From Tomocerus qinae (taxonomy: Eukaryota > Arthropoda > Collembola > Entomobryomorpha > Tomoceridae): a DNA stretch of 64,000 nucleotides. The position numbers were made by a program, and so were the translations under genes. Numbering within the stretch: position 1 is the first letter of the stretch; the number at the start of each line of letters is the position of its first letter. Where the stretch lies: the NCBI GenBank assembly GCA_020055645.1, contig CM034546.1:50468001-50532000 (forward strand), given 5' to 3'. The notes below the pieces were generated by a model that had not been told where the DNA came from, ran no database searches, and saw only the letters and a program-made list of their open reading frames with translations. Below, in pieces: positions 1,062-64,000 of the stretch.

Positions 1062-1500
1062 TAAAAAGCTAGCTGCATTCCACAACAGGATTTAGACTGG
1101 CAACAAATCTACCAAAATGACATCTGTCACGGTTTTCAAACAGCCAAACTACAAAACACTACTACACATTCACCGAATTAACATACTAAATCACACCTCT
1201 AGTGGAGTGATAAAAGGATAGAATTCAAAAATAATAAACGTCAAAACCAATTGATTATAGAATCATGCCATTTTCATCAAAATCGTTCAACAGACTAAGT
1301 TGAGACAAAGACAATTATATTTATTAACACACAAGAACTTTTCATTCCAAATAAGTTAACAAAAATTATTTATTGCTGTAAAGTAATTGTTTTGGTTCTG
1401 GGAAATTCATTGCAAAACGGATTCCAAGTAGTACCACATGAAATGAATTACAACGAAATAGTTCATCATCCTAGGTTACAATAAAACCAGATTCTTTAAA
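1062..1500 (+). repeat. Diverged, internally deleted edge monomer
   Basis: The first recognisable satellite sequence (about 1062-1140) matches the ACAGGATTTAGTCTGGCAC...CAGCCGTACTACAAA part of the consensus with many substitutions, for example GACATCTGTCACGG for GATATCTGCCGAGG. After AAACTACAAA it jumps straight to the CATTCACCGAATTAACATACT part, so about 190 bp of the monomer is missing. From there it becomes normal Y-type sequence. This is the expected look of a border monomer that escapes homogenisation. Confidence 0.8.
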
Positions 1501-4170
1501 TAATGGCTTCGAATATTTTAAAAGACAAAACCGACCACAAACAATTTATATCGTATTCTTGTTGATTTGGAGATTCTTTGAAATATTTTATGAAACGGAT
1601 TTCTAGAAGTATAACATGTGCTACAAAAACTAACCATCACCCTAATTTGAAACCTAGATAACCGAATTCAATAACAGGATTAAGTCTGGCACTGGCACCT
1701 AAACCTACCGAAATGATATCTGCCGAGGTTTTCAACCAGCCGTACTACAAATCAATACCTTCCATCATCCTTCACGGCAGTCACACTAGTAGGTAATAGC
1801 AATAAAAATTGTTCCACAAAAGTCACAATTGAGACAAGATATTTACCATAGAACGGACCCCAAATTATATTTTAGTGAGGCATTAAGTAATTTGACGGTT
1901 TTCGTAAATGTTCTAGGATCTTTTTACTACTACAAAATCGCCGAAACAACATACTAAATCACACATCAAGTGGAATTATTAAAAGATGGAATTCAAAAAT
2001 TGGAAGCATCAAAATCATTTGCATTTAGAATCATATCTGTTTTATCAAAATTGTTCAACAGACTAAGTTGACACAAAGACAATTATATTTATTAACACAC
2101 AAGAATTTTTCACTCCAAATATGTTAACAAAAATTATTTTTTGTTGTAAAGTAATTGTTTTGGTTCTGGGAAATTCATTACAAAACGGATTCCAAGTAGT
2201 ACCTTATGAAATGAATTACAACGAAATAGTTCATCGACCTAGGTAACAATAAAACCAGATTCTTTAAATAATGGCTTCAAATATTTTAAAAGACAAAACC
2301 GACCACAACAAATTTATATCGTATTCTTCTTGATTTGGAGATTCTTGGAAATATTTTATGAAACGTATTTCCAGAAGTATATTATGTGCTACGAAAATTA
2401 ACCATCAACTAAAATTGAGACCTAGATAACCGCATTAAATAACAGGATTTACTCTCGCACTGGCACCTAAACCTACCAAAATGATATCTGCCGAGGTTTT
2501 CAACTAGCCGTACTACAAACCAAGGCCTTCCATCATCCTTCACAGCAGTCACACTAGTAGCTAATAGCAATAAAAATTGTTCCAAAAAAGTCACAAGTGA
2601 AACAGGGTATTTGCCATTAAACGGATTCCAAATTATATTTTAGTGAGCGATTAAATATTTTGACTGTTTTCCTAACGTTTCTACGATCTTTTTACTACTT
2701 CACAATCACCGAATTAACATACTAAATCACACATCTAGTGGAGTCACAAGAGCATAGAATTCAAAAATAATAAACATCAAAACCAATTGATTATAGAATC
2801 ATGCCATTTTCATCAAAATCGTTCAACAGACTTAGTTGAGACAAAGACAATTATATTTATTAACACACAAGAATTTTTCATTCCAAATAAGTCAACAGAA
2901 ATTATTTATTGTTGTAAAGTAATTGTTTTGGTTCTGGGAAATTCATTACAAAACGGATTCCAAGTAGTACCACATGAAATGAATTACAACGAAATAGTTC
3001 ATCATCCTAGGTTACAATAAAACCAGAATCTTTTAATAATGGCTTCGAGTGTTTTAAAAGACAAAACAGACCACAAGCAATTTATATTGTATTCTAATTG
3101 ATTTGAAAATTCTGGGAAATATTTTAAGAAACGGATTTCTAAAAGTAATTCATGTGCTATAAAAATTAACCATGAACCAAAATTTAGACAAAGCTAACCG
3201 CATTCAATAACAGGATTTAGTCTGGCACTGGCACCTAAACCTACCGAAACGATATCTGCCGAGGTTTTCAACCAGCCGTACTACAAATCAATACCTTCCA
3301 TCATACTTAACCGCAGTCACACTAGTAGCTAATAACAATAAAAATTGTTCCACAAAAGTCACAAGTGAGACAAAATATTTACTATAAAACGGACTCCAAA
3401 TTATATTTTAGTGAGGCATTAAGCAATTTGACTGTTTTCGTAAATGTTGTAGGATCTTTTTACTACTACAAAATCATCGAAACAACATACTAAATCTCAC
3501 ATCAAGTGGAATGATAAAAAGATGGAATTCAAAAATTAGAAGCATCAAAACCAATTGCATATAGAAACATATCTGTTTTATCAAAATCGTTCTACAGGCT
3601 AAGTTGAAACAAAGACAACTGTATTTAATAACTCACAAGAGTTTATCACTCCAAATGTGTTAACAAAAATTATTTATTTTTGTAAAGCAATTGTTTTGGT
3701 TCTGGGAAATTCATTACAAAACGGATTCCAAGTAGTACCACATGAAATGAATTACAACGAAATAGTTCATCAATCTATGTTACGACAAAACCAGATTCTT
3801 TAAATAATGGTTTCGAATATTTTAAAAGACAAAACCGACCACAAACAATTTATATCGTATTCAAATTGTTTTTTAGATTCTTGGAAACATTTTATGAAAC
3901 GGATTTCTAAAAGTAAACCATACATATGCTATAATAATTAGCCATTAACTAAAATTGGGACAAAGCTAACCACATTCAATAAAAGTATTTAATCTGGCGC
4001 TGGCACCTAAACCTACCGAAATGATATCTGCCGAGGTTTTCAACCAGCCGTACTACAAACCAAGGCCTTCCATCATCCTTCACAGCAGTCACACTAGTAG
4101 CTAACAGCAATAAAAATTGTTCAAAGTCACAAGTGAGACAAGGTATTTGCCATTAAACGGATTCCAAATT

Positions 4171-17900: not shown

Positions 17901-18757
17901 CAGTCACACTAGTAGCTAATAGCAATAAAAATTGTTCCACTAAAGTCACAAGTGAGATAAAATATTTACTATAAAACGGACTCCAAATTATATTTTAGTG
18001 TGGCATTAAGCAATTTGACTGTTTTCGTAAATGTTGTAGGATCTTTTTACTACTACAAAATCATCGAAACAACATACTAAATCTCACATCAAGTGGAATG
18101 ATAAAAAGATGGAATTCAAAAATTAGAAGCATCAAAACCAATTGCATATAGAAACATATCTGTTTTATCAAAATCGTTCTACAGGCTAAGTTGAAACAAA
18201 GACAACTGTATTTAATAACACACAAGAGTTTATCACTCCAAATGTGTTAACAAAAATTATTTATTGTTGTGAAGCAATTGTTTTGGTTCTGGGAAATTCA
18301 TTACAAAACGGATTCCAAGTAGTATCACATGAAATGAATTACAACAAAATAGTTCATCAATCTATGTTAGGACAAAACCAGATTCTTTAAATAATGGTTT
18401 CGAATATTTTAAAAGACAAAACCGACCACAAACAATTTATATCGTATTCAAATTGTTTTTTAGATTCTTGGAAATATTTTATGAAACGGATTTCTAAAAG
18501 TAAACCATACATATGCTATAATAATTAGCCATTAACTAAAATTGGGACAAAGCTAACCACATTCAATAAAAGTATTTAATCTGGCGCTGGCACCTAAACC
18601 TACCGAAATGATATCTGCCGAGGTTTTCAACCAGCCGTACTACAAACCAAGGCCTTCCATCATCCTTCACAGCAGTCACACTAGTAGCTAACAGCAATAA
18701 AAATTGTTCAAAGTCACAAGTGAGACAAGGTATTTGCCATTAAACGGATTCCAAATT

Positions 18758-21061
18758 ATAGTTTTTTGAGCGATTAAGTATTTTGACTGTTTTCCTAACG
18801 TTTCTACGATCTTTTTACGACTTCACAATCACCGAATTAACATACTAAATCAAACATATAGTGGAGTGATAAAAGGATAGAATTCAAAAATAATAAGCAT
18901 CAAAACCAATTGATTATAGAATCATGCCATTTTCATCAAAATCGTTCAATAGACTAAGTTAAGACAAAGACAATTATATTTCTTAACACACAAGAATGTT
19001 TCACTCCAAATATGTTAACAAAAATTATTTATTGTTGTAAAGTAATTGTTTTGGTTCTGGGAAATTCATTACAAAGCGGATTCCAAGCAGTACCTTATGA
19101 AATGAATTACAACGAAATAGTTCATCATCCTAGGTTACAATAAAACCAGATTCTTTAAATAATGGCGTCGAATATTTTAAAAGACAAAACCGACCACAAA
19201 CAATTTATATCGTATTCTTATTGATTTGGAGATTCTTGGAAATATTTTATGAAACGGATTTCTAGAAGTATAGCATGTGCTACAAAAATTAACCATCAAC
19301 CAAAATTGAGATCTAGATAACCGCATTCAATAACAGAATTTAGTCTGGCACTGGCACCTAAACCTACCGAAATGATATCTGCCGAGGTTTTCAACCAGCC
19401 GTACTACAAATCGAGGCCTTCCATCATCTTTCACGGCAGTCACACTAGTGGGTAATAGCAATAAAAATTGTTCCACAAAAGTCACAATTGAGACAAGATA
19501 TTTACCATAGAACGGACCCCAAATTATATTTTAGTGAGGCATTAAGTAATTTGACGGTTTTCGTAAATGTTCTAGGATCTTTTTACTACTACAAAATCGC
19601 CAAAACAACATACTAAATCACACATAAAGTGGAATTATTAAAAGATGGAATTCAAAAATTGGAAGCATCAAAATCAATTGCATATAGAATCATATCTGTT
19701 TTATCAAAATTGTTCAACAGACTAAGTTGAGACAAAAACAATTATTATTTTTAACACACAAGAATTTTTCACTCCAAATATGTTAACAAAAATTATTTAT
19801 TGTTGTAAAGTAATTGTTTTGGTTCTGGGAAATTCATTACAAAACGGATTCCAAGTAGTACCACATGAAATGAATTACAACTAAATAGTTTATCATCCTA
19901 GGTTAAAATAAAACCAGAATCTTTTAATAATGGCTTCGAGTGTTTTAAAAAACAAAACAGACCACAAGCAATTTATATTGTATTCTAATTGATTTGAAAA
20001 TTCTGGGAAATATTTTAAGAAATGGATTTCTAAAAGTAATTCATGTGCTATAAAAATTAACCATGAACCAAAATTTAGACAAAGCTAACCGCATTCAATA
20101 ACAGGATTTAGTCTGGCACTGGCACCTAAACCTACCGAAACGATATCTGCCGAGCTTTTCAACCAGCCTTACTACAAATCAATACCTTCCATCATACTTC
20201 ACAGCAGTCACACTAGTAGCTAATAGCAATAAAAATTGTTCCACTAAAGTCACAAGTGAGATAAAATATTTACTATAAAACGGACTCCAAATTATATTTT
20301 AGTGTGGCATTAAGCAATTTGACTGTTTTCGTAAATGTTGTAGGATCTTTTTACTACTACAAAATCATCGAAACAACATACTAAATCTCACATCAAGAGG
20401 AATGATAAAAAGATGGAATTCAAAAATTAGAAGCATCAAAACCAATTGCATATAGAAACATATCTGTTTTATCAAAATCGTTCTACAGGCTAAGTTGAAA
20501 CAAAGACAACTGTATTTAATAACACACAAGAGTTTATCACTCCAAATGTGTTAACAAAAATTATTTATTGTTGTGAAGTAATTGTTTTGGTTCTGGGAAA
20601 TTCATTACAAAACGGATTCCAAGTAGTATCACATGAAATGAATTACAACAAAATAGTTCATCAATCTATGTTAGGACAAAACCAGATTCTTTAAATAATG
20701 GTTTCGAATATTTTAAAAGACAAAACCGACCACAAACAATTTATATCGTATTCAAATTGTTTTTTAGATTCTTGGAAATATTTTATGAAACGGATTTCTA
20801 AAAGTAAACCATACATATGCTATAATAATTAGCCATTAACTAAAATTGGGACAAAGCTAACCACATTCAATAAAAGTATTTAATCTGGCGCTGGCACCTA
20901 AACCTACCGAAATGATATCTGCCGAGGTTTTCAACCAGCCGTACTACAAACCAAGGCCTTCCATCATCCTTCACAGCAGTCACACTAGTAGCTAACAGCA
21001 ATAAAAATTGTTCAAAGTCACAAGTGAGACAAGGTATTTGCCATTAAACGGATTCCAAATT
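18758..21061 (+). repeat. Trimeric higher-order repeat (Z-X-Y), copy 1
   Basis: A 2,304-bp unit followed directly by a second copy. Private variants shared by both copies: GTATAGCATGTG (19267 and 21574), ATCGCCAAAACAAC (19596 and 21901), GGTTAAAATAAAACC, AAGAAATGGATTTC and ATCAAGAGGAATG. These are absent from the flanking trimers, which marks a very recent duplication. Confidence 0.85.
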
Positions 21062-26300: not shown

Positions 26301-27453
26301 TATCTGCCGAGCTTTTCAACCAGCCGTACTACAAATCAATACCTTCCATCATACTTCACAGCAGTCACACTAGTAGCTAATAGCAATAAAAATTGTTCCA
26401 CAAAAGTCACAAGTGAGACAAAATATTTACTATAAAACGGACTCCAAATTATATTTTAGTGAGGCATTAAGCAATTTGACTGTTTTCGTAAATGTTGTAG
26501 GATCTTTTTACTACTACAAAATCATCGAAATAACATACTAAATCTCACATCAAGTGGAATGATAAAAAGATGGAATTCAAAAATTAGAAGCATCAAAACC
26601 AATTGCATATAGAAACATATCTGTTTTATCAAAATCGTTCTACAGGCTAAGTTGAAACAAAGGCAACTGTATTTAATAACACACAAGAGTTTATCACTCC
26701 AAATGTGTAAACAAAAATTATTTATCGTTGTAAAGCAATTGTTTTGGCTCTGGGAAATTCATTACAAAACGGATTCCAAGTAGTATCACATGAAATGAAT
26801 TACAACAAAATAGTTCATCAATCTATGTTAGGACAAAACCAGATTCTTTAAATAATGGTTTCGAATATTTTTAAAGACAAAACCGACCATAAACAATTTA
26901 TATCGTATTCAAATTGCTTTTTAGATTCTTGGAAATATTTTATGAAACGGATTTCTAAAAGTAAACCATACATATGCTATAATAATTAGCCATCAACTAA
27001 AATTGGGACAAAGCTAACCGCATTCAATGATAGGATTTAATCTGGCGCTGGCACCTAAACCTACCGAAATGATATCTGCCGAGGTTTTCAACCAGCCGTA
27101 CTACAAACCAAGGCCTTCCATCATCCTTCACAGCAGTCACACTAGTAGCTAACAGCAATAAAAATTGTTCAAAGTCACAAGTGAGACAAGGTATTTGCCA
27201 TTAAACGGATTCCAAATTATAGTTTTTTGAGCGATTAAGTATTTTGACTGTTTTCCTAACGTTTCTACGATCTTTTTACGACTTCACAATCACCGAATTA
27301 ACATACTAAATCAAACATATAGTGGAGTGATAAAAGGATAGAATTCAAAAATAATAAGCATCAAAACCAATTGATTATAGAATCATGCCATTTTCATCAA
27401 AATCGTTCAATAGACTTAGTTGAGACAAAGACAATTATATTTATTAACACACA

Positions 27454-27457
27454 AGAA
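27454..27457. repeat. Target site duplication AGAA, left
   Basis: AGAA directly precedes the GGAG terminus and is repeated at 28783-28786 directly after the other terminus. The consensus monomer carries a single AGAA at this point. Confidence 0.75.
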
Positions 27458-27718
27458 GGAGCGTTGTCGAAACAAACGGAGCAGAGGCGAAGTGAGACAT
27501 TTCTGCCGTGTACATTCAGAATGTAACTTTCATACAGCGCACCTTCATGCAATTTAAAATAGCGGATTCCATGAGCAATTATCTCAAATAATGAGATACA
27601 CAAAAATGTTTGTTGAACCCTCGTCCACATTACCAAAATTTTTTTTTTCAAAATTGCACCCCATTTTCTTACAAAGAGCAAAAATTTTGTGACAATTAAA
27701 TGCATACAAAATCTACAC

Positions 27719-27810
27719 GCACCATTTATCCCCAACCAAACTCTTTTGGTTGGATAGTACATTAAAAATGCTACATTTTACTAATTGGAACCAGTGGGGA
27801 TAAATGGTGC
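27719..27810. repeat. Perfect 16-bp inverted repeat, small hairpin in the 1.3-kb element
   Basis: GCACCATTTATCCCCA at 27719-27734 is the exact reverse complement of TGGGGATAAATGGTGC at 27795-27810, with a 60-base loop. It lies in the left third of the 1,325-bp element and is separate from the large central hairpin. Confidence 0.85.
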
Positions 27811-28125
27811 ATTCAAAAGTTATAAGCGTTCGAAATAGTTGAAATTCATAAAATTTCCAAAATACCAAGGTAGTTTTATGTAGGGACAATTACAGTTCCT
27901 TTATTACAAAATATTTTAAAGGTATAGACCCTAGAAAATTAATGACTTAATGACAACTACAAAGGCAATTTTAGGCGTACTTAAGTTTTCGAATACGGTG
28001 ATTTCGAAAAAAATAAATCTTACTATGAAATTCTAAAAAGTGGGAGGGGCATCCCAACCCTCTCAGTTTTTGTCTTCACATTTGTTTAAAATTTTGGATT
28101 TAAGCATTTTCAAACATACTGATTT

Positions 28126-28590
28126 CGAATACAATAATCATTTATTTGTAAATCCAAAATTCGGGGTGGGCGGGGTAGCCACACCCAATAAATTTAGTAC
28201 AGACAAATTATAATAACAAATTATATTTTGAGAATTTCGGATGCGTTAATTTAAAAAAAATACCGTTACTGCAAAAATTCCAATAAATGGGAGGGGCTAC
28301 TTTGTTTTGGCAGTCATATTTATTTTAATAATGCTTATTGTATTCGAAATTAGAATATTCGAAAACCTGAAAACAAAAAAATTGACAAATATGACTACCA
28401 AAACTAAGTGGGTAGGGCTGTCCCTCCCACTTCTGGGATGTTTGCAGTAACGGTAATAGTTTTTAAAATTAGCGTGCCCGACAACCTCAAAATGTAATTT
28501 GCAATATTAATTTGACTGCCCTTAATCAAATGGGTGGGGTCACCCCGCCCACCCCGAATTTTGAATTTACAAATCATTATTGTATTCAAA
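28126..28590. repeat. Long imperfect inverted repeat (foldback core) of the 1.3-kb element
   Basis: The arms run inward from CGAATACAAT (28126) and ATTGTATTC (ending near 28588), with the centre near 28350. The best-matched stretch is 28148-28176 against 28542-28570, where 28 of 29 positions pair, including CGGGGTGGGCGGGGT. TACCGTTACTGCA at 28261-28273 pairs perfectly with 28443-28455. Indels make the rest imperfect. A transcript could fold into a double-stranded stem of about 200 bp. Confidence 0.8.
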
Positions 28591-28782
28591 ACGACCATCA
28601 TTAGTGCAAAGCAGAGCAGTGAATGGCACCACCTAAAACGCCATGACCAACCACAGTACCATACCTCACTCACCTTGTGGCATAGTTAAATGGTGCTGTG
28701 AAGATGGCGCACGGAATACTTATTTGTTAATGGGACCTACTACTGCTATATCGCAGTGCTCCGTTTGAATCGGCACGTCTCC

Positions 28783-28786
28783 AGAA
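28783..28786. repeat. Target site duplication AGAA, right
   Basis: Second copy of AGAA. Satellite sequence resumes from here (AGAATTTTTCATTCC). Confidence 0.75.
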
Positions 28787-31700
28787 TTTTTCATTCCAAA
28801 TAAGTTAACAAAAATTATTTATTGTTGTAAAGTAATTGTTTTGGCTCTGGGAAATTCATTACAAAACGGATTCCAAGTAGTACCACATGAAATGAATTAC
28901 AACGAAATAGTTCATCATCCTAGGTTACAATAAAACCAGAATCTTTTAATAATGGCTTCGAGTGTTTTAAAAAACAAAACAGACCACAAGCAATTTATAT
29001 TGTATTCTAATTGATTTGAAAATTCTGGGAAATATTTTATGAAACGGATTTCTAGAAGTATAACATGTGCAACAAAAAATAAACCATCAACCAAAATTGA
29101 GATCTAGATAACCGCATTCAATAACAGAATTTAGTCTGGCACTGGCACCTAAACCTACCGAAATGATATCTGCCGAGGTTTTCAACCAGCCGTACTACAA
29201 ATCGAGGCCTTCCATCATCTTTCACGGCAGTCACACTAGTGGGTAATAGCAATAAAAATTGTTCCACAAAAGTCACAATTGAGACAGGGTATTTGCCATT
29301 CAACGGATTCGAAATTATATTTTAGTGAGCGATTAAGTATTTTGACTGTTTTCCTAACGTTTCTACGATCTTTTTACTACTTCACAATCACCGAATTAAC
29401 ATACTTAATCACACATCTGGTGGAGTGATGAAAGCATAGAATTCAAAAATAATAAACATCAAAACCAATTGATTATAGAATCATGCCATTTTCATCAAAA
29501 TCGTTCAACAGACTTAGTTGAGACAAAGACAATTATATTTATTAACACACAAGAATGTTTCACTCCAAATATGTTAACAAAAATTATTTATTGTTGTAAA
29601 GTAATTGTTTTGGTTCTGGGAAATTCATTACAAAGCGGATTCCAAGCAGTACCTTATGAAATGAATTACAACAAAATAGTTCATCAATCTATGTTAGGAC
29701 AAAACCAGATTCTTTAAATAATGGTTTCGAATACTTTAAAAGACAAAACCGACCACAAACAATTTATATCGTATTCAAATTGTTTTTTAGATTATTGGAA
29801 ATATTTTATGAAACGGATTTCTAAAAGTAAACCATACATATGCTATAATAATTAGCCATTAACTAAAATTGGGACAAAGCTAACCACATTCAATAATAGT
29901 ATTTAATCTGGCGCTGGCACCTAAACCTACCGAAATGATATCTGCCGAGGTTTTCAACCAGCCGTACTACAAACCAAGGCCTTCCATCATCCTTCACAGC
30001 AGTCACACTAGTAGCTAACAGCAATAAAAATTGTTCAAAGTCACAAGTGAGACAAGGTATTTGCCATTAAACGGATTCCAAATTATAGTTTTTTGAGCGA
30101 TTAAGTATTTTGACTGTTTTCCTAACGTTTCTACGATCTTTTTACGACTTCACAATCACCGAATTAACATACTAAATCAAACATATAGTGGAGTGATAAA
30201 AGGATAGAATTCAAAAATAATAAGCATCAAAACCAATTGTTTATAGAATCATGCCATTTTCATCAAAATCGTTCAACAGACTAAGTTAAGACAAAGACAA
30301 TTAAATTTCTTAACACACAAGAATGTTTCACTCCAAATATGTTAACAAAAATTATTTATTGTTGTAAAGTAATTGTTTTGGTTCTGGGAAATTCATTACA
30401 AAACGGATTCCAAGTAGTACCACATGAAATGAATTACAACGAAATAGTTCATCATCCTAGGTTACAATAAAACCAGAATCTTTTAATAATGGCTTCGAGT
30501 GTTTTAAAAAACAAAACAGACCACAAGCAATTTATATTGTATTCTAATTGATTTGAAAATTCTGGGAAATATTTTATGAAACGGATTTCTAGAAGTATAA
30601 CATGTGCAACAAAAAATAAACCATCAACCAAAATTGAGATCTAGATAACCGCATTCAATAACAGGATTTAGTCTGGCACTGGCACCTAAACCTACCGAAA
30701 TGATATCTGCCGAGGTTTTCAACCAGCCGTACTACAAATCGAGGCCTTCCATCATCTTTCACGGCAGTCACACTAGTGGGTAATAGCAATAAAAATTGTT
30801 CCACAAAAGTCACAATTGAGACAGGGTATTTGCCATTCAACGGATTCGAAATTATATTTTAGTGAGCGATTAAGTATTTTGACTGTTTTCCTAACGTTTC
30901 TACGATCTTTTTACTACTTCACAATCACCGAATTAACATACTTAATCACACATCTGGTGGAGTGATGAAAGCATAGAATTCAAAAATAATAAACATCAAA
31001 ACCAATTGATTATAGAATCATGCCATTTTCATCAAAATCGTTCAACAGACTTAGTTGAGACAAAGATATTTATTAACACACAAGAATGTTTCACTCCAAA
31101 TATGTTAACAAAAATTATTTATTGTTGTAAAGTAATTGTTTTGGTTCTGGGAAATTCATTACAAAGCGGATTCCAAGCAGTACCTTATGAAATGAATTAC
31201 AACAAAATAGTTCATCAATCTATGTTAGGACAAAACCAGATTCTTTAAATAATGGTTTCGAATACTTTAAAAGACAAAACCGACCACAAACAATTTATAT
31301 CGTATTCAAATTGTTTTTTAGATTCTTGGAAATATTTTATGAAACGGATTTCTAAAAGTAAACCATACATATGCTATAATAATTAGCCATTAACTAAAAT
31401 TGGGACAAAGCTAACCACATTCAATAATAGTATTTAATCTGGCGCTGGCACCTAAACCTACCGAAATGATATCTGCCGAGGTTTTCAACCAGCCGTACTA
31501 CAAACCAAGGCCTTCCATCATCCTTCACAGCAGTCACACTAGTAGCTAACAGCAATAAAAATTGTTCAAAGTCACAAGTGAGACAAGGTATTTGCCATTA
31601 AACGGATTCCAAATTATAGTTTTTTGAGCGATTACGTATTTTGACTGTTTTCCTAACGTGTCTACGATCTTTTTACGACTTCACAATCACCGAATTAACA

Positions 31701-36175: not shown

Positions 36176-36220
36176 GTCACAAGTGAGACAAGGTATTTGC
36201 CATTAAACGGATTTTAAATT

Positions 36221-52400: not shown

Positions 52401-52915
52401 TTACGTTTCTACGATCCTTTTACTACTTCACAATCACCGAATTAACATACTAAATCACACATCTAGTGGAGTGATAAAAGCATAGAATTCAAAAATAATA
52501 AACATCAAAACCAATTGATTATAGAATCATGCCATTTTCATCAAAATCGTTCAACAGACTTAGTTGAGACAAAGACAATTATATTTATTAACACACAAGA
52601 ATTTTTCATTCCAAATAAGTTAAAAATTATTTATTGTTGTAAAGTAATTGTTTTGGCTCTGGGAAATTCATTACAAAACGGATTCCAAGTAGTACCACAT
52701 GAAATGAATTACAACGAAATAGTTCATCATCCTAGGTTACAATAAAACCAGAATCTTTTAATAATGGCTTCGAGTGTTTTAAAAGACAAAACAGACCACA
52801 AGCAATTTATATTGTATTCTAATTGATTTGAAAATTCTGGGAAATATTTTAAGAAACGGATTTCTAAAAGTAATTCATGTGCTATAAAAATTAACCATGA
52901 ACCAAAATTTAGACA

Positions 52916-52923
52916 AAGCTAAC
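52916..52923. repeat. Target site duplication AAGCTAAC, left
   Basis: An 8-bp direct repeat with 53143-53150. The consensus monomer has a single AAGCTAACCGCATTC here. Confidence 0.8.
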
Positions 52924-53142
52924 CATAGATATAGAAAGGGGATTTAGATAACGCATAACAAAATAACAGGATAAGTAACAGGATATTGTAAACAGACAAA
53001 AAGCTTCCATTCTCCACACTTTTTACACACGTTTCCCGGTCTTGTACTTTCGTACAACAAACGCTTCCATATAAATTAATACATTGTGAGATAGGGAAAT
53101 GTTTCTTCTAGTAGCGTGTGTTAGTGTGTTTCTAATTCTATG
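52924..53142. mobile_element. 219-bp hAT-like MITE
   Basis: The insertion is flanked by an 8-bp duplication, AAGCTAAC (52916-52923 and 53143-53150). Its ends are inverted repeats: CATAGATATAGAAA at the left against CATAGAATTAGAAA at the right on the other strand, 12 of 14 matching. The 8-bp TSD and CA...TG ends fit the hAT superfamily. At 219 bp it has no coding capacity, so it must depend on a transposase elsewhere. The equivalent monomer one higher-order unit earlier (about 48300) is uninterrupted and serves as an empty site. Superfamily assignment is inference from TSD length and end sequence only. Confidence 0.8.
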
Positions 53143-53150
53143 AAGCTAAC
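53143..53150. repeat. Target site duplication AAGCTAAC, right
   Basis: Second copy of the 8-bp direct repeat. Satellite sequence resumes with CGCATTCAATAACAGG. Confidence 0.8.
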
Positions 53151-54275
53151 CGCATTCAATAACAGGATTTAGTCTGGTACTGGCACCTAAACCTACCGAA
53201 ACGATATGTGCCGAGGTTTTCAACCAGCCGTACTACAAATCAATACCTTCCATCATACTTCACAGCAGTCACACTAGTAGCTAATAGCAATAAAAATTGT
53301 TCCACAAAAGTCACAAGTGAGATAAAATATTTACTATAAAACGGACTCCAAATTATATTTTAGTGAGGCATTAAGCAATTTGACTGTTTTCGTAAATGTT
53401 GTAGGATCTTTTTACTACTACAAAATCATCGAAACAACATACTAAATCTCACATCAAGTGGAATGATAAAAAGATGGAATTCAAAAATTAGAAGCATCAA
53501 AACCAATTGCGTATAGAAACATATCTGTTTTATCAAAATCGTTCTACAGGCTAAGTTGAAACAAAGACAACTGTATTTAATAACACACAAGAGTTTATCA
53601 CTCCAAATGTGTTAACAAAAATTATTTATTGTTGTGAAGCAATTGTTTTGGTTCTGGGAAATTCATTACAAAACGGATTCCAAGTAGTATCACATGAAAT
53701 GAATTACGACAAAATAGTTCATCAATCTATGTTAGGACAAAACCAGATTCTTTAAATAATGGTTTCGAATATTTTAAAAGACAAAACCTACCACAAACAA
53801 TTTATATCGTATTCAAATTGTTTTTTAGATTCTTGGAAATATTTTATGAAACGGATTTCTAAAAGTAAACCATACATATGCTATAATAATTAGCCATTAA
53901 ATAAAATTGGGACAAAGCTAACCACATTCAATAATAGTATTTAATCTGGCGCTGGCACCTAAACCTACCGAAATGATATCTGCCGAGGTTTTCAACCAGC
54001 CGTACTACAAACCAAGGCCTTCCATCATCCTTCACAGCAGTCACACTAGTAGCTAACAGCAATAAAAATTGTTCAAAGTCACAAGTGAGACAAGGTATTT
54101 GCCATTAAACGGATTTTTAAATTATAGTTTTTTGAGCGATTAAGTATTTTGACTGTTTTCCTAACGTTTCTACGATCTTTTTACGACTTCACAATCACTG
54201 TATTAACATACTCAATCACACATCTAGTGGAGTGACAAAAGCATAGAATTCAAAAATAATAAACATCAAAACCAA

Positions 54276-57200
54276 TTGATTATAGAATCATGCCATTTTC
54301 ATCAAAATCGTTCAACAGACTTAGTTGAGACAAAATTATTATATTTATTAACACACAAGAATTTTTCATTCCAAATAAGTTAACAAAAATTATTTATTGT
54401 TGTAAAGTAATTGTTTTGGCTCTGGGAAATTCATTACAAAACGGATTCCAAGTAGTACCACATGAAATGAATTACAACGAAATAGTTCATCATCCTAGGT
54501 TACAATAAAACCAGATTCTTTAAATAATGGCGTCGAATATTTTAAAAGACAAAACCGACCACAAACAATTTATATCGTATTCTTATTGATTTGGAGATTC
54601 TTGGAAGTATTTTATGAAACGGATTTCTAGAAGTATAACATGTGCTACAAAAATTAACCATCAACCAAAATTGAGATCTAGATAACCGCATTCAATAACA
54701 GAATTTAGTCTGGCACTGGCACCTAAACCTACCGAAATGATATCTGCCGAGGTTTTCAACCAGCCGTACTACAAATCGAGGCCTTCCATCATCTTTCACG
54801 GCAGTCACACTAGTGGGTAATAGCAATAAAAATTGTTCCACAAAAGTCACAATTGAGACAAGATATTTACCATAGAATGGACCCCAAATTATATTTTAGT
54901 GAGGCATTAAGTAATTTGACGGTTTTCGTAAATGTTCTAGGATCTTTTTACTACTACAAAATCGCCGAAACAACATACTAAATCACACATCAAGTGGAAT
55001 TATTAAAAGATGGAATTCAAAAATTGGAAGCATCAAAATCAATTGCATATAGAATCATATCTGTTTTATCAAAATCGTTCTACAGGCTAAGTTGAAACAA
55101 AGACAACTGTATTTAATAACACACAAGAGTTTATCACTCCAAATGTCTTAACAAAAATTATTTATTGTTGTGAAGCAATTGTTTTGGTTCTGGGAAATTC
55201 ATTACAAAACGGATTCCAAGTAGTACCACATGAAATGAATTACAACAAAATAGTTCATCAATCTATGTTAGGACAAAACCAGATTCTTTAAATAATGGCT
55301 TCAAATATTTTAAAACACAAAACCGACCACAAAAAATTTATATCGCATTCAAATTGTTTTTTAGATTCTTGGAAATATTTTATGAAACGTATTTCTAGAA
55401 GTATATTATGTGCTACGAAAATTAACCATCAACTAAAATTGAGACCTAGATAACCGCATTAAATAACAGGATTTACTCTCGCACTGGCACCTAAACCTAC
55501 CGAAATGATATCTGCCGAGGTTTTCAACCAGCCGTACTACAAATCAATACCTTCCATCATACTTCACAGCAGTCACACTAGTAGCTAATAGCAATAAAAA
55601 TTGTTCTACAAAAGTCACAAGTGAGATACGGACTCCAACTTATATTTTAGTGAGGCATTAAGCAATTTGACTGTTTTCATAAATGTTGTAGGATCTTTTT
55701 ACTACTACAAAATCATCGAAACAACATACTAAATCTCACATCAAGTGGAATGATAAAAAGATGGAATTCAAAAATTAGAAGCATCAAAACCAATTGCATA
55801 TAGAAACATATCTGTTTTATCAAAATCGTTCTACAGGCTAAGTTGAAACAAAGACAACTGTATTTAATAACACACAAGAGTTTATCACTCCAAATGTGTT
55901 AACAAAAATTATTTATCGTTGTAAAGCAATTGTTTTGGTTCTGGGAAATTCATTACAAAACGGATTCCAAGTAGTACCACATGAAATGAATTACAACAAA
56001 ATAGTTCATCAATCTATGTTAGGACAAAACCAGATTCTTTAAATAATGGTTTCGAATATTTTAAAAGACAAAACCGACCACAAACAATTTATATCGTATT
56101 CAAATTGTTTTTTAGATTCTTGGAAATATTTTATGAAACGGATTTCTAAAAGTAAACCATACATATGCTATAATAATTAGCCATCAACTAAAATTGGGAC
56201 AAAGCCAACCGCATTCAATACCTTCCATCATCTGGTTTAATCTGGCGCTGGCACCTAAACCTACCGAAATGATATCTGCCGAGGTTTTCAACCAGCCGTA
56301 CTACAAACCAAGGCCTTCCATCATCATTCACAGCAGTCACACTAGTTGCTAACAGCAATAAAAATTATTCAAAGTCACAAGTGAGACAAGATATTTGCCA
56401 TTCAACGGATTTCAAATTATAGTTTTTTGAGCGATTAAGTATTTTGACTGTTTTCCAAACGTTTCTACGATCTTTTTACTACTTTACAATCACCGAATTA
56501 ACATACTAAATCAAACATATAGTGGAGTGATAAAAGGATAGAATTCAAAAATAATAAACATCAAAACCAATTGATTATAGAATCATGCCATTTTCATCAA
56601 AATCGTTCAACAGACTAAGTTAAGACAAAGACAATTATATTTCTTAACACACAAGAATGTTTCACTCCAAATATGTTAACAAAGATTATTTATTGTTGTA
56701 AAGTAATTGTTTTGGTTCTGGGAAATTCATAACAAAGCGGATTCCAAGTATTACCTTATGAAATTAATTACAACGAAATAGTTCATCAACCTAGGTAACA
56801 ATAAAACCAGATTTTTTAAATAATGGCTTCAAATATTTTAAAAGACAAAACCGACCATAAAAAATTTATATCGTATTCTTATTGATTTGGAGATTCTTGG
56901 AAATATTTTATGAAACGTATTTCTAGAAGTATATTATGTGCTACGAAAATTAACCATCAACTAAAATTGAGACCTAGATAACCGCATTAAATAACAGGAT
57001 TTACTCTCGCACTGGCACCTAAACCTACCGAAATGATATCTGCCGAGGTTTTCAACCAGCCGTACTACAAACCAAGGCCTTCCATCATCTTCACAGCAGT
57101 CACACTAGTAGCTAATAGCAATAAAAATTGTTCCAAAAAAGTCACAAGTGAGATAAAATATTTACTATAAAACGGACTCCAAATTATATTTTAGTGAGGC

Positions 57201-59646
57201 ATTAAGCAATTTGACTGTTTTCGTAAATGTTGTAGGATCTTTTTACTACTACAAAATCATCGAAACAACATACTAAATCTCACATCAAGTGGAATGATAA
57301 AAAGATGGAATTCAAAAATTAGAAGCATCAAAACCAATTGCATATAGAAACATATCTGTTTTATCAAAATCGTTCTACAGGCTAAGTTGAAACAAAGACA
57401 ACTGTATTTAATAACACACAAGAGTTTATCACTCCAAATGTGTTAACAAAAATTATTTATTGTTGTGAAGTAATTGTTTTGGCTCTGGGAAATTCATTAC
57501 AAAACGGATTCCAAGTAGTATCACATGAAATGAATTACGACAAAATAGGTCATCAATCTATGTTAGGACAAAACCAGATTCTTTAAATAATGGTTTCGAA
57601 TATTTTAAAAGACAAAACCGACCACAAACAATTTATATCGTATTCTTATTGATTTGGAGATTCTTGGAAATATTTTACGAAACGGATTTCTAAAAGTAAA
57701 CCATACATATGCTATAATAATTAGCCATTAACTAAAATTGGGACAAAGCTAACCACATTCAATAATAGTATTTAATCTTGCGCTGGCACCTAAACCTACC
57801 GAAATGATATCTGCCGAGGTTTTCAACCAGCCGTACTACAAACCAAGGCCTTCCATCATCTTCACAGCAGTCACACTAGTAGTTAATATCAATAAAAATT
57901 GTTCCAAAAAAGTCACAAGTGAAACAGGGTATTTGCCATTAAACGGATTCCAAATTATATTTTAGTGAGCGATTAAGTATTTTGACTGTTTTCCTTACGT
58001 TTCTACGATCCTTTTACTACTTCACAATCACCGAATTAACATACTAAATCACACATCTAGTGGAGTGATAAAAGCATAGAATTCAAAAATAATAAACATC
58101 AAAACCAATTGATTATAGAATCATGCCATTTTCATCAAAATCGTTCAACAGACTTAGTTGAGACAAAGACAATTATATTTATTAACACACAAGAATTTTT
58201 CATTCCAAATAAGTTAACAAAAATTATTTATTGTTGTAAAGTAATTGTTTTGGCTCTGGGAAATTCATTACAAAACGGATTCCAAGTAGTACCACATGAA
58301 ATGAATTACAACGAAATAGTTCATCATCCTAGGTTACAATAAAACCAGAATCTTTTAATAATGGCTTCGAGTGTTTTAAAAGACAAAACAGACCACAAGC
58401 AATTTATATTATATTCTAATTGATTTGAAAATTCTGGGAAATATTTTAAGAAACGGATTTCTAAAAGTAATTCATGTGCTATAAAAATTAACCATGAACC
58501 AAAATTTAGACAAAGCTAACCGCATTCAATAACAGGATTTAGTCTGGTACTGGCACCTAAACCTACCGAAACGATATGTGCCGAGGTTTTCAATCAGCCG
58601 TACTACAAATCAATACCTTCCATCATACTTCACAGCAGTCACACTAGTAGCTAATAGCAATAAAAATTGTTCCACAAAAGTCACAAGTGAGATAAAATAT
58701 TTACTATAAAACGGACTCCAAATTATATTTTAGTGAGGCATTAAGCAATTTGACTGTTTTCGTAAATGTTGTAGGATCTTTTTACTACTACAAAATCATC
58801 GAAACAACATACTAAATCTCACATCAAGTGGAATGATAAAAAGATGGAATTCAAAAATTAGAAGCATCAAAACCAATTGCGTATAGAAACATATCTGTTT
58901 TATCAAAATCGTTCTACAGGCTAAGTTGAAACAAAGACAACTGTATTTAATAACACACAAGAGTTTATCACTCCAAATGTGTTAACAAAAATTATTTATT
59001 GTTGTGAAGCAATTGTTTTGGTTCTGGGAAATTCATTACAAAACGGATTCCAAGTAGTATCACATGAAATGAATTACGACAAAATAGTTCATCAATCTAT
59101 GTTAGGACAAAACCAGATTCTTTAAATAATGGTTTCGAATATTTTAAAAGACAAAACCGACCACAAACAATTTCTATCGTATTCTTATTGATTAAAAAAT
59201 TATGGAAATATTTTATGAAACGGATTTCTAAAAGTAAACCATACATATGCTATAATAATTAGCCATTAACTAAAATTGGGACAAAGCTAACCACATTCAA
59301 TAATAGTATTTAATCTGGCGCTGGCACCTAAACCTACCGAAATGATATCTGCCGAGGTTTTCAACCAGCCGTACTACAAACCAAGGCCTTCCATCATCTT
59401 CACAGCAGTCACACTAGTAGTTAATAGCAATAAAAATTGTTCCAAAAAAGTCACAAGTGAAACAGGGTATTTGCCATTAAACGGATTCCAAATTATATTT
59501 TAGTGAGCGATTAAGTATTTTGACTGTTTTCCTAACGTTTCTACGATCTTTTTACTACTTCACAATCACCGAATTAACATACTAAATCACACATCTAGTG
59601 GAGTGATAAAAGCATAGAATTCAAAAATAATAAACATCAAAACCAA
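54276..59646 (+). repeat. Second heptameric higher-order repeat (Z-X-Y-Y-Y-X-Y), copy III
   Basis: Unit of 5,371 bp with the same monomer order and private variants as copy I. Its last Y monomer carries TTTCTATCGTATTC and ATTAAAAAATTATGG (near 59175-59205), which match a monomer near 42.05 kb rather than the last Y of copies I and II. That points to later exchange at its right end. Confidence 0.75.
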
Positions 59647-61015
59647 TTGATTATAGAATCATGCCATTTTCATCAAAATCGTTCAACAGACTTAGTTGAG
59701 ACAAAGACAATTATATTTATTAACACACAAGAATTTTTCATTCCAAATAAGTTAACAAAAATTATTTATTGTTGTAAAGTAATTGTTTTGGCTCTGGGAA
59801 ATTCATTACAAAACGGATTCCAAGTAGTACCACATGAAATGAATTACAACGAAATAGTTCATCATCCTAGGTTACAATAAAACCAGAATCTTTTTAATAA
59901 TGGCTTCGAGTGTTTTAAAAGACAAAACAGCCCACAAGCAATTTATATTGTATTCTAATTGATTTGAAAATTCTGGGAAATATTTTAAGAAACGGATTTC
60001 TAAAAGTAATTCATGTGCTATAAAAATTAACCATGAACCAAAAATTTAGACAAAGCTAACCGCATTCAATAACAGGATTTAGTCTGGTACTGGCACCTAA
60101 ACCTACCGAAACGATATGTGCCGAGGTTTTCAACCAGCCGTACTACAAATCAATACCTTCCATCATACTTCACAGCAGTCACACTAGTAGCTAATAGCAA
60201 TAAAAATTGTTCCACAAAAGTCACAAGTGAGATAAAATATTTACTATAAAACGGACTCCAAATTATATTTTAGTGAGGCATTAAGCAATTTGACTGTTTT
60301 CGTAAATGTTGTAGGATCTTTTTACTACTACAAAATCATCGAAACAACATACTAAATCTCACATCAAGTGGAATGATAAAAAGATGGAATTCAAAAAATT
60401 AGAAGCATCAAAACCAATTGCGTATAGAAACATATCTGTTTTATCAAAATCGTTCTACAGGCTAAGTTGAAACAAAGACAACTGTATTTAATAACACACA
60501 AGAGTTTATCACTCCAAATGTGTTAACAAAAATTATTTATTGTTGTGAAGCAATTGTTTTGGTTCTGGGAAATTCATTACAAAACGGATTCCAAGTAGTA
60601 TCACATGAAATGAATTACGACAAAATAGTTCATCAATCTATGTTATGACAAAACCAGATTCTTTAAATAATGGTTTCGAATATTTTAAAAGACAAAACCT
60701 ACCACAAACAATTTATATCGTATTCAAATTGTTTTTTAGATTCTTGGAAATATTTTATGAAACGGATTTCTAAAAGTAAACCATACATATGCTATAATAA
60801 TTAGCCATTAAATAAAATTGGGACAAAGCTAACCACTTTCAATAATAGTATTTAATCTGGCGCTGGCACCTAAACCTACCGAAATGATATCTGCCGAGGT
60901 TTTCAACCAGCCGTACTACAAACCAAGGCCTTCCATCATCCTTCACAGCAGTCACACTAGTAGCTAACAGCAATAAAAATTGTTCAAAGTCACAAGTGAG
61001 ACAAGGTATTTGCCA

Positions 61016-61019
61016 TTAA
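61016..61019. repeat. Target site duplication TTAA, left
   Basis: The satellite TTTGCCATTAAACGGATT is split at TTAA, with a second TTAA at 63669-63672. TTAA is the obligate piggyBac target. Confidence 0.95.
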
Positions 61020-61037
61020 CCCATTAGGCCCCAGTGT
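61020..61037 (+). repeat. piggyBac left terminal inverted repeat
   Basis: CCCATTAGGCCCCAGTGT directly abuts the TTAA and pairs with the right end at 14 of 18 positions. Its inner part overlaps the CCCCAGTGTCATATATA motif that recurs twice inside the element. Confidence 0.85.
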
Positions 61038-61368
61038 CATATATATAAGCCTTACTAAATAAGTTCTTATTCCACCGAGTTATAACCGCCAAGATTTAAA
61101 CTTTTTGTGTCAAAACATTGCCATGACTCAAGACAAAATTCCCGAAAGTGGAATTTTTCAAAAATTCCAATAACTCGTCGTAATACGGTGTTTCAAAAAT
61201 CTTCAAAATTTTAGCCAGGTAAGTTCATTTTCAAAAAAGGTGATTAAAAAACGAATAAGCGTTATACAACTACAAAAATATTTTTTATTACTTAAAATTT
61301 GTCCACTCAATTATGTGGTGGGTATTAATGATTGTATTATGTCAATTTGAAAATATCCGATGCGTTTG

Positions 61369-61403
61369 AAAATGCCCGTCTTCTATATATGACACTGGGG
61401 TTA
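61369..61403 (-). repeat. piggyBac subterminal inverted repeat, left
   Basis: On the minus strand it reads TAACCCCAGTGTCATATATA then GAAGACGGGCATTTT, matching 63512-63546 at 33 of 35 positions. It ends 31 bases before the transposase ATG, so it lies in the 5' leader or promoter region. Confidence 0.9.
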
Positions 61404-61434
61404 TCCGTAAGCATTTCCTATGTTCATGTAGATA

Positions 61435-62451
61435 ATGGCGAATCGAATAAAAGCTTTGACAATGGAGGAGGTTAGTGCCATTGTCAACTCTGATGACTTC
61501 CATGGAGACAATATTGACATTGTCATCATTCCCCCTGGGGTAGATGAGCTTACGGACGAGGAGGAAGAGGGGGGTGAAGACTTCGAAGAAAGATATGATG
61601 TTGCTGGCACTCTAGAAATCCACTACGATTCTGTTAATCAAGATCAATACAATGACGAGGAGGAACTTCAATCTCCTGATGAAAAAGACATCGAGGAAGA
61701 AGATCCCGAACCGCTACCAACTGCAAATTCTAAACCTGTACCAAAGCGGAGAAAGACTGACCCAAGGGGGAAAATGACTGCACCAAAGCGAAAAAGGACC
61801 GCTGCTACGCAGAATAAGACTACATCAAACAAAAAGTCCTTTCTACCGCAACCTTCGGCACAACAACAGGAAGAATCTTCCCCAGAAGAAAGTGACATTA
61901 GTGAAGAAGAACCTGCATATCATCCGGAGGAAAGCGACATTAGTGATGAAGAGCCCCAGCCCCCACAAACTGACAAGCCTAAAGTGGCACAGAAGCGAAA
62001 TAAGGCTCCAGCAAAGAAACAGACTATTGTGCCACCGCAAATTGCCTGGGAAAAGCGTGACCCAATTTATTCAAAAATTTTCCAAAAAACTGAAGGCTGG
62101 AAAACAGCGCTAGAAAATCTTGTCAGGACTTTACGAGATCTTTCCCCTGTTGAACTGTTCGAAGAAATGCTGTCTGAGAGTACTTTTGATCTACTGCTAG
62201 AAGAAACATTGCGATATGCCAAAGATGTCAAAAACGATCAAACGTTTTCCCTTAGCCTTGAAGAGTTGAAAGTTTTTTTAGGAATTATTTTATATTCCGG
62301 ATACTCAAGATTGCCTAGACAGCACATGTATTGGGCTGAAGCCGAGGACGTTGGACGAGAAATAGTAAAGAACGCTATGAGTCGTAATAGGTTTGAAAAG
62401 ATCAAAAGTTATCTTCACGTGCAAGATAAGATCTCTCTGTCGATGAGATGA
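61435..62451 (+). CDS. piggyBac transposase, N-terminal part, truncated by frameshift
   Basis: 338 codons from an ATG 31 bp after the left subterminal repeat. Residues 1-95 are strongly acidic. Residues 101-200 contain basic clusters (KRRK at 104-107, PKRKR at 117-121, QKRNKAPAKK at 186-195) that could act as nuclear signals. PEESDISEEEP and PEESDISDEEP (150-160, 164-174) are a short tandem duplication. From about residue 208 the sequence is recognisable piggyBac transposase (DDE_Tnp_1_7): LEELKVFLGIILYSGYSRLP, YWAEAEDVGREIVKNAMSRN and RFEKIKSYLHVQD. Family members continue with roughly 35-45 further residues before the first catalytic aspartate. Here the frame instead ends in ISLSMR and stops, while the catalytic segment resumes in the next frame. 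I read this as a deletion at about 62427-62436 and not as a natural C-terminus. The estimate of missing residues rests on remembered family spacing. Confidence 0.9.
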   Translation: MANRIKALTMEEVSAIVNSDDFHGDNIDIVIIPPGVDELTDEEEEGGEDFEERYDVAGTLEIHYDSVNQDQYNDEEELQSPDEKDIEEEDPEPLPTANSKPVPKRRKTDPRGKMTAPKRKRTAATQNKTTSNKKSFLPQPSAQQQEESSPEESDISEEEPAYHPEESDISDEEPQPPQTDKPKVAQKRNKAPAKKQTIVPPQIAWEKRDPIYSKIFQKTEGWKTALENLVRTLRDLSPVELFEEMLSESTFDLLLEETLRYAKDVKNDQTFSLSLEELKVFLGIILYSGYSRLPRQHMYWAEAEDVGREIVKNAMSRNRFEKIKSYLHVQDKISLSMR

Positions 62452-63437
62452 TAGTCCGTTATTATGGAAGAAACAGCCTCAAGCAATTCATCAGAGGTAA
62501 ACCAATACGCTTTGGTTATAAACTTTGGGCTTTATGTGGTAGCTCCGGATTTTTATATAACTTTGATCTCTATTGCGGCAAAATTGAGAATACGGATCCA
62601 AAATCTTTACCTCTTGGAGAGAAAGTCGTCTTAAACATGCTGGAAGCTGTAACTGAACCATCAGCTCATAAATTGTTTATAGACAATTTCTTCACCTACA
62701 GAAGTCTTCTAATCAAACTAAGGGATCATGGAATTAGAGCAACTGGAACAATTCGGGAAAACCGTACTTCAAAATGCCCACTATGGGACAAGAAAGAAAT
62801 GTCGAAGAAAAAAAGAGGAGATTACGACTATCAGTTTGATGAAAACGAAGAAATTCTGATGGTTCGATGGAAGGACAACAAATGCGTTTCTCTTGCCACC
62901 AATTTTGACTCTGTCTTACCCCTTACATCGGCTAAACGTTATAGCCGAGAAGCCAAGGCAAAAGTTGATATCCCGCAGCCAAAGCTAATATCAAACTATA
63001 ACTTTGGTATGGGTGGGGTTGACATTCACGACTGGTATGCGTCAAAATACCACATTGGAATTAAAGGAAATAAGTGGTACTTTCCACTTATAACCCGGTT
63101 ATTCGATATGGTAATTACCAATGCTTCAATATTGTACCGGAAAATTCATGGGAAAAAATCCTTTGATATGTTGGACTATAGAAGACAGGTTGCCGTATTT
63201 TATATGAAGACCGGTTATGGACAGCGGAAACTAGGCAGACCATTGTCATTAGTAAAATCACATGCTCAAAAAGTGTTTACTAGTGTCCAATACGATGGCA
63301 TTGGACATTTTATCGCCAAAAGAAGCAAGCAGCAACGGTGTCAGTACCAAAATTGCAAGAGCAAGCCGTTAACATTTTGTCAAAAATGTGACACAACTCT
63401 TTGCCAAAAATGCTTTTTACCTTTTCATGCCAAATAA
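62448..63437 (+). CDS. piggyBac transposase, catalytic and C-terminal part
   Basis: 329 codons counted from ATG 62448, but that ATG is an internal methionine. Homology starts slightly upstream in this frame (DLSVDE, from 62430), and the first catalytic aspartate codon is 62442-62444, outside the ATG-initiated frame. Visible landmarks: YYGRNSLKQFIRGKPIRFGY at 5-24; LFIDNFFTYRSLL with the second catalytic Asp at 79; GMGGVDIHDWY with the third at 192 (a further Asp at 195); NKWYFPLITRLFD at 208-220. The C-terminus is a cysteine-rich zinc-binding tail with C298, C303, C311, C314, C319 and C322 plus H327, as in PGBD-type proteins. The frame overlaps the N-terminal one by four bases (ATGA), which looks like coupling but is a by-product of the deletion. 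Started at its own ATG, the product would lack the first catalytic residue and the N-terminal domain, so activity is unlikely. Confidence 0.9.
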   Translation: MIVRYYGRNSLKQFIRGKPIRFGYKLWALCGSSGFLYNFDLYCGKIENTDPKSLPLGEKVVLNMLEAVTEPSAHKLFIDNFFTYRSLLIKLRDHGIRATGTIRENRTSKCPLWDKKEMSKKKRGDYDYQFDENEEILMVRWKDNKCVSLATNFDSVLPLTSAKRYSREAKAKVDIPQPKLISNYNFGMGGVDIHDWYASKYHIGIKGNKWYFPLITRLFDMVITNASILYRKIHGKKSFDMLDYRRQVAVFYMKTGYGQRKLGRPLSLVKSHAQKVFTSVQYDGIGHFIAKRSKQQRCQYQNCKSKPLTFCQKCDTTLCQKCFLPFHAK

Positions 63438-63479
63438 TTTCATTATTACTTATTTGTAACTCCTAAATTGAAATTAGGC

Positions 63480-63485
63480 AATAAA
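63480..63485 (+). promoter_or_regulatory. Polyadenylation signal AATAAA of the transposase gene
   Basis: AATAAA lies 43 bases after the TAA stop of the catalytic frame and before the right subterminal repeat, a sensible position for 3'-end formation of the transposase mRNA. No cleavage site can be confirmed from sequence alone. Confidence 0.6.
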
Positions 63486-63511
63486 GAATGAAATTTTATA
63501 TTTACACGGTG

Positions 63512-63546
63512 TAACCCCAGTGTCATATATAAAGGACGGGCATTTT
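63512..63546 (+). repeat. piggyBac subterminal inverted repeat, right
   Basis: TAACCCCAGTGTCATATATA then AAGGACGGGCATTTT, inverted relative to 61369-61403 with two mismatches. Together with the left copy it brackets the transposase gene, with the CCCC side of each facing the gene. Confidence 0.9.
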
Positions 63547-63650
63547 CGGAAAAACTTCTGAAGATAGAATTTTTTAAATATTTTTGACGGATTCCTTGTA
63601 TTTTTTGGGATTGGGAGCATAAATATCATTGTCCAATTCGAAAAACAAAT

Positions 63651-63668
63651 AAATTGGGGACCAATGGG
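63651..63668 (-). repeat. piggyBac right terminal inverted repeat
   Basis: On the minus strand it reads CCCATTGGTCCCCAATTT, pairing with 61020-61037 at 14 of 18 positions, immediately inside the right TTAA. Confidence 0.85.
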
Positions 63669-63672
63669 TTAA
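63669..63672. repeat. Target site duplication TTAA, right
   Basis: Second TTAA. Satellite sequence resumes with ACGGATTCCAAATTATAG. Confidence 0.95.
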
Positions 63673-64000
63673 ACGGATTCCAAATTATAGTTTTTTGAGC
63701 GATTAAGTAATTTGACTGTTTTCCAAACGTTTCTACGATCTTTTTACTACTTCACAATCACCGAATTAACATACTAAATCACACATCTAGTGGAGTGACA
63801 AAAGCATAGAATTCAAAAATAATAAACATCAAAACCAATTGATTATAGAATCATGCCATTTTCATCAAAATCGTTCAACAGACTTAGTTGAGACAAAGAC
63901 AATTATATTTATTAACACACAAGAATTTTTCATTCCAAATAAGTTAACAAAAATTATTTATTGTTGTAAAGTAATTGTTTTGGTTCTGGGAAATTCATTA
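63669..64000 (+). repeat. Satellite array segment 4, partial Y monomer running off the window
   Basis: The right half of the Y monomer split by the piggyBac. It has GAGCGATTAAG, the Y tail, then the CACATCTAGTGGAGTGAC and CACAAGAATTTTTCATTCC parts. It ends mid-monomer, so the array continues beyond position 64000. Confidence 0.95.

Follow-up and report, generated by a model that had tools for sequence, protein, structure and literature searches.

What kind of repeat fills a 64,000-nucleotide stretch of the Tomocerus qinae genome, and could it mark a centromere? The whole stretch that we analysed, referred to here as the window, covers positions 50,468,001 to 50,532,000 of C1, a contig of 140.45 Mb in an assembly of 334.4 Mb and 115 contigs. 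The initial annotation of this DNA described a long homogenised satellite with several coexisting higher-order repeat (HOR) periods and suggested that it could be a centromeric or pericentromeric array. Our analysis confirms the structural description. As to the nature of the locus, we think that this is probably a low-copy, single-locus and hence chromosome-private satellite shaped by unequal crossing-over, which most likely needs no sequence-specific job.

The array and the elements inserted in it

We located the satellite by a BLAST comparison of one monomer against the window. Matches spanned positions 1158-61019 and 63669-64000, all on the plus strand and head-to-tail, and between 1158 and 61019 the series was broken by two inserts only. 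The strongest period across the array was 768 bp. Seventy-three monomers were complete (751 to 778 bp, mostly 767 to 771 bp), and three more were split by inserts, at 27356-27457 and 28783-29453, at 52500-52924 and 53144-53488, and at 60403-61019 and 63669-63823. Partial monomers lay at 1158-1235 and 63824-64000. These figures agree with the initial count of about 77 monomers of ~769 bp. The proposed start at position 1062 was also fair, as the regular array from 1158 is preceded by a degenerate scrap of the satellite on the plus strand (1067-1158; 74.7% identity over 99 columns), which corresponds to monomer positions 421 to 519 and includes the conserved box described below. Tandem Repeats Finder (TRF) detected the array when the maximum period was set to 2000; a standard run missed it because its longest period was 500.

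Two domains of the array can be told apart, both on the plus strand. The left domain (1158-27457) comprises 34.2 copies according to TRF. The right domain comprises 31.4 copies at 28783-52924 and a further 10.3 copies at 53144-61019, and the satellite at the right end of the window (63669-64000) carries on past it. Beyond the window, the array continues on the plus strand to C1:50,533,885, flips to the minus strand and stops near C1:50,536,797. Its orientation is therefore asymmetric, with a long plus part against only 2.9 kb of inverted satellite. A detached satellite piece of 2.3 kb was found 22 kb past the inverted end, at C1:50,558,555-50,560,873.

All three inserts in the window interrupt finished monomers. 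The first (27458-28782, 1325 bp, unstranded) contains inverted repeats internally and terminates in short GGAG/CTCC motifs; it lies inside one monomer, with the 4-bp motif AGAA flanking it on both sides, and these features suggest a non-autonomous transposon. The second (52925-53143, 219 bp, unstranded) also lies inside one monomer, with the 8-bp sequence AGCTAACC at both flanks. The third, at 61020-63668 on the plus strand, is a piggyBac-type element at a TTAA site, with ends CCCATTAGG.../...CCAATGGG and a piggyBac-type transposase (Pfam DDE_Tnp_1_7) split between two overlapping frames. The view of a single satellite over 1062-64000 consequently holds for most of that range, with the exception of the stretch taken up by this transposon.

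Higher-order structure and monomer composition

The number of monomer families depended on the threshold chosen. Average-linkage clustering at 10% distance gave three groups of 41, 28 and 4 monomers, while at 8% distance it gave five groups of 28, 21, 18, 4 and 2. The three main groups at 8% hold 67 of the 73 complete monomers, which bears out the three families first proposed, with two minor ones to be added at this distance. At a 2% cut-off, the complete monomers fell into 24 types. Lettered by type, their order is ABCDEFGHIIDEFGHIIDEFJFDEFDEFDEFJFDKLKMNOPQRNSNSTUCUCVNWXTUCVNXTUVNWXTUCUC, a string from which the split monomers are left out; one of them belongs where D is first followed by K, and another follows VNXTU.

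Several multimeric units can be read from this order. In the left domain, the 7-mer DEFGHII and the 3-mer DEF are repeated in tandem; for DEFGHII, 10 consecutive monomers are 99.8% identical to those seven further along. The 5-mer DEFJF occurs twice in the same domain, recurring 11 monomers later and not in tandem. The right domain holds the tandem 2-mers NS and UC and the 7-monomer block VNWXTUC, which is present twice, the second copy lying in the 53144-61019 segment, with a shorter VNXTU plus a split monomer in between. VNWXTUC thus recurs as a block without being strictly tandem. Counting the monomer split at 52500-53488, the 7-monomer block of the right domain recurs at 13 monomers and a 5-monomer block at 22. 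All of the 7-, 5-, 3-, 2- and second 7-monomer units that had been listed for this array do recur, but the 5-mer and the second 7-mer lack strict tandem repetition.

The order of types is far from random, since the string contains 43 distinct triples, whereas 10,000 shuffles averaged 70.7 and never gave fewer than 66. Among HOR blocks, taken as 13 runs of three or more monomers selected at less than 1.5% distance, identity was 99.35 to 99.87%, compared with 89.3% for adjacent monomers in the left domain and 87.6% in the right. The locus thus shows what defines a satellite with HORs, namely monomers arranged head-to-tail and multimers far more alike than adjacent monomers, and it was rightly described as homogenised, with several coexisting periods. 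The sequence GAGCGATTAAG was counted 32 times, its copies lying about 768 bp, 1.53 to 1.55 kb, 2.3 kb, 3.07 kb or 3.84 kb apart, with irregular spacings at the inserts; these positions reproduce the tail spacings of about 1.54, 2.3, 3.07 and 3.84 kb noted initially. The restriction pattern predicted for the array was likewise obtained in silico: EcoRI and SpeI each yielded a ladder of ~770 bp, and BglII gave mostly fragments of 1.54, 2.3 and 5.37 kb.

Some monomer types are mosaics of others. When we compared one representative of each type by eighths, the first half of type H equalled E and its second half matched F, I and C at 98 to 100%. In type J, the first quarter equalled I and the fourth to seventh eighths equalled E, while the third and last eighths were nearest to M and A. 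Mosaics of this kind are the expected trace of out-of-register recombination between monomers. A weak internal repetition, at a lag of around 175 to 178 bp, is also present in part of the consensus, and the best internal alignment of the consensus beat all 200 of 200 dinucleotide shuffles. The 768-bp unit may have grown from a nucleosome-sized unit.

Variation along the monomer is uneven. A box of ~60 bp at monomer positions 457 to 516 (for example, at about 20891-20950 of the window) contains 5 variable columns among the 24 types, against a mean of 19.4 per 60 columns. The permutation P value was about 0.001 with a 60-column window and 0.14 with a 30-column window. Judging by sequence variation, such a box could reflect a bound protein and hence a function; gene conversion would be an alternative cause. 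We rejected a CENP-B box, as the satellite contained none at up to one mismatch; at one mismatch, 2 matches were found against 2.85 expected, both inside the 1325-bp insert. A known structured RNA was rejected because Rfam gave no match at the gathering threshold. A strong single-strand fold was also rejected: the fold of one monomer was unremarkable (z -1.25, with 2 of 20 shuffles equally good), and two monomers examined carry short inverted repeats only.

Genomic distribution and neighborhood

We next asked where else the satellite occurs. An 18-mer present in most monomers had 81 exact matches in the genome, and all 81 lay within C1:50,469,692-50,559,481, a number equal to the count in the arrays of this locus. 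A second satellite word, a 22-mer, gave 90 genome matches at up to three mismatches, of which 87 were at the locus; the 3 outside equalled the 3 obtained with a reversed-pattern control. Strongly diverged copies could escape such word counts. Two genome searches with long queries returned 10 and 4 matches, from this locus only, a weak result in that two of four candidates were scored in each and the window monomers were not among the matches listed. Summed, the 768-bp satellite amounts to ~66 kb of 334 Mb, or about 0.02% of the genome. With less than 0.1% of the genome and every exact 18-mer match at one locus, it has the abundance and distribution of a low-copy, chromosome-specific satellite. 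Centromeric satellites are usually, though not universally, present on all or most chromosomes; the 18-mer matches are confined to one locus, and the 22-mer matches outside it do not exceed the control. We therefore discarded the idea of a centromeric satellite that the chromosomes have in common.

The array lies close to genes, whose exons are located 4.5 to 11 kb from its left edge. Frames matching SAC3/GANP are found 3.3 to 3.9 kb before the window, roughly 4.5 kb away from the satellite; a PH_13 frame with a sub-threshold RhoGEF match lies 9.6 to 9.9 kb before the window. The left flank also contains C2H2 zinc-finger, kinase and glycosyl hydrolase frames. Some family match was obtained for 6 of 10 and 5 of 10 of the frames searched, the remainder being unmatched. 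Elsewhere on the same contig, a nuclear copy of mitochondrial COI is present at C1:36,670,928-36,672,268, where the matched stretch is open under the invertebrate mitochondrial code; further COI pieces lie on C1 near 139.1 to 139.9 Mb and on contigs C81 and C11.

To the right, a second satellite with a unit of ~302 to 303 bp starts at C1:50,565,749, 29 kb past the 768-bp array. Its plus arm (C1:50,565,749-50,580,800) holds about 50 copies in 15 kb, and its minus arm (C1:50,582,275-50,608,185) about 86 copies in 26 kb; a junction stretch of ~1.5 kb containing satellite-like pieces separates the two. A 22-mer of this satellite had 101 matches in the genome, equal to its count in the array (101), and the matches listed were all in the array. 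The 133 complete monomers were 90.1% alike on average. The minus arm has at most a weak 4-monomer period (93.2% at lag 4 versus 89.6% at lag 1), and the plus arm has no clear one (90.0% versus 88.4%). Kinship of the two satellites was rejected (best match E 0.11), and so was internal repetition of the 303-bp unit, since 134 of 200 shuffles scored equally well. Between the satellites, we observed minisatellites at C1:50,545,685-50,553,116, including units of 20 and 22 bp, and a PIF1-helicase (Helitron-like) frame. Past the second satellite, at about C1:50,609,798-50,615,023, the frames point to virus-like or Polinton-like genes, with one sub-threshold Pox_A32 match.

Together, these repeats form an island of ~140 kb with zinc-finger genes on both sides and other gene frames on its left. 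The zinc-finger gene stretches to the left of the island and to its right, beyond the 302-bp array, are 92.7% identical in DNA sequence, and six more flank stretches are 88 to 97% identical, with order and orientation kept. The satellite island would accordingly appear to be flanked on each side by one copy of a duplicated gene block.

Origin of the array and comparison with known systems

Because the 768-bp satellite is found at a single locus, spans ~66 kb, contains no CENP-B box even with one mismatch allowed and has exons 4.5 to 11 kb away, the suggestion of a centromeric or pericentromeric array is weakened. Its one locus, its ~0.02% share of the genome and the nearby exons further indicate that it is not common to all centromeres. 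What is left of the suggestion is a private centromere, in which the ~140-kb island, its middle rich in transposons and minisatellites, would be the small regional centromere of this chromosome, made of private DNA, with other chromosomes using other sequences. By these word counts, neither satellite is shared with another contig, which argues against a centromere, as do the absent CENP-B box and the exons of the left genes; a CENP-B box is, however, not required for a centromere. Pfam CENP-C_C had no match in the genome, a negative that is weak because this domain diverges and the control genomes were prokaryotes. On the other side, ~140 kb located at 36% of the length of this 140-Mb chromosome contain two unrelated satellites, each private as judged by exact-pattern counts, with minisatellites and a PIF1-helicase frame between them. 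Both also switch orientation, which recalls the macro-dyad symmetries reported for putative Tribolium pericentromeres (PMC13081366). On balance, we regard a private centromere as unlikely, though well worth keeping in mind. The more specific proposal, that the 768-bp array and the inverted 302-bp arrays act together as the centromere and that the centromeres of this animal are chromosome-private and defined by arrangement (HORs and inverted arms) instead of a common sequence, strikes us as slightly less likely. If the array were a centromere, it would offer a clean test of whether a satellite private to one chromosome can serve that chromosome alone.

Two other explanations deserve mention. 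Human DXZ4 is a chromatin boundary, and the array might be a functional non-coding locus of this kind, that is, a DXZ4-like macrosatellite, or else a source of small RNAs aided by the inverted end. The single locus, the long unit, the conserved ~60-bp box and the inverted right end would suit such a role, but Rfam had no match at the gathering threshold and the fold of the monomer was ordinary, and we consider this improbable. It is more improbable still that the assembler partly made the copy number and the HOR order. Many monomers have a counterpart with 100% identity, so that assemblers could collapse or expand them, and the array is known from the assembly alone; yet no N occurs in the 264 kb examined, the three inserts are unlike one another, and the array has two distinct domains.

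We therefore return to the low-copy, chromosome-private satellite as the probable explanation. A unit of ~768 bp, in part of which traces of an older ~175-bp repeat are faintly visible, would have been tandemly duplicated in an interval separating gene clusters. Several adjacent HOR periods would then have arisen by unequal crossing-over and by the duplication of multi-monomer blocks, recombination within monomers would have given the mosaic types, and a fold-back event may have created the inverted right end. DNA transposons would have inserted into monomers already finished. Local heterochromatin would be the expected state of such an array. Two observations speak against this explanation: the low variation of the ~60-bp box, which could mean function, and the second private satellite, whose two large inverted arms exceed what one chance expansion would predict. 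As the array is free of gaps and is accompanied by its flanks, its inverted end and an adjoining private satellite, the birth of an array and the turnover of its HORs can be read stepwise at one locus.

The 768-bp array, a block that has probably been reshuffled recently, adds one more case to a known class of repeats. Human alpha satellite has a 171-bp unit, occurs on all chromosomes, extends over megabases and carries a CENP-B box in part, and the 768-bp satellite lacks these traits; human macrosatellites have units of kilobases. The array nevertheless resembles alpha satellite in its diverged monomers, near-identical multimers and adjacent HOR variants (HORs as defined in PMC4053949). It resembles macrosatellites in forming a tandem array at one or very few loci; the four human macrosatellites described in PMC3018141 are expressed, whereas no gene is evident in the 768-bp unit. 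The initial annotation held that HOR arrays are not commonly described outside primates, a statement contradicted by several reports. Of the 171 species covered by PMC4053949, 76 had clear HORs, and that survey calls them widespread in plants and animals, so that HORs can no longer be seen as mainly a primate matter, and PMC11917152, PMC10218199 and PMC7598501 describe them in Drosophila and Tribolium.

Among insects, the satellites of the Drosophila ananassae subgroup are likewise recently expanded and organized in HORs, but as reported in PMC11917152 they reach up to 2 Mb, are pericentromeric and have monomers of 99 to 411 bp. The putative (peri)centromeric satellites of Tribolium madens share a complex monomer with older subunits (TmSat2) and orientation switches, but according to PMC13081366 they account for 38% of that genome, in multi-megabase regions likely on all chromosomes, as opposed to ~0.02% in one place. 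The 768-bp satellite is unnamed in the titles and abstract openings that we compared, a comparison made without a satellite sequence database and no proof of absence. Its nearest kind, among the systems considered here, is that of the low-copy satellites of T. castaneum. As PMC10218199 describes them, nearly all of these (45) each occupy less than 0.1% of the genome, and 31 satellites have their annotated copies on a single chromosome or among unplaced pieces; they are mainly euchromatic and A+T-rich, with transposons nearby and, in some cases, dimeric HORs. The T. qinae satellite shares with them the small genome share, the single chromosome, the nearby transposons, the A+T richness and the HORs, and it differs from that description in that ~80 monomers with a unit length of 768 bp make up one long array, whose several HOR periods reach 7 monomers.
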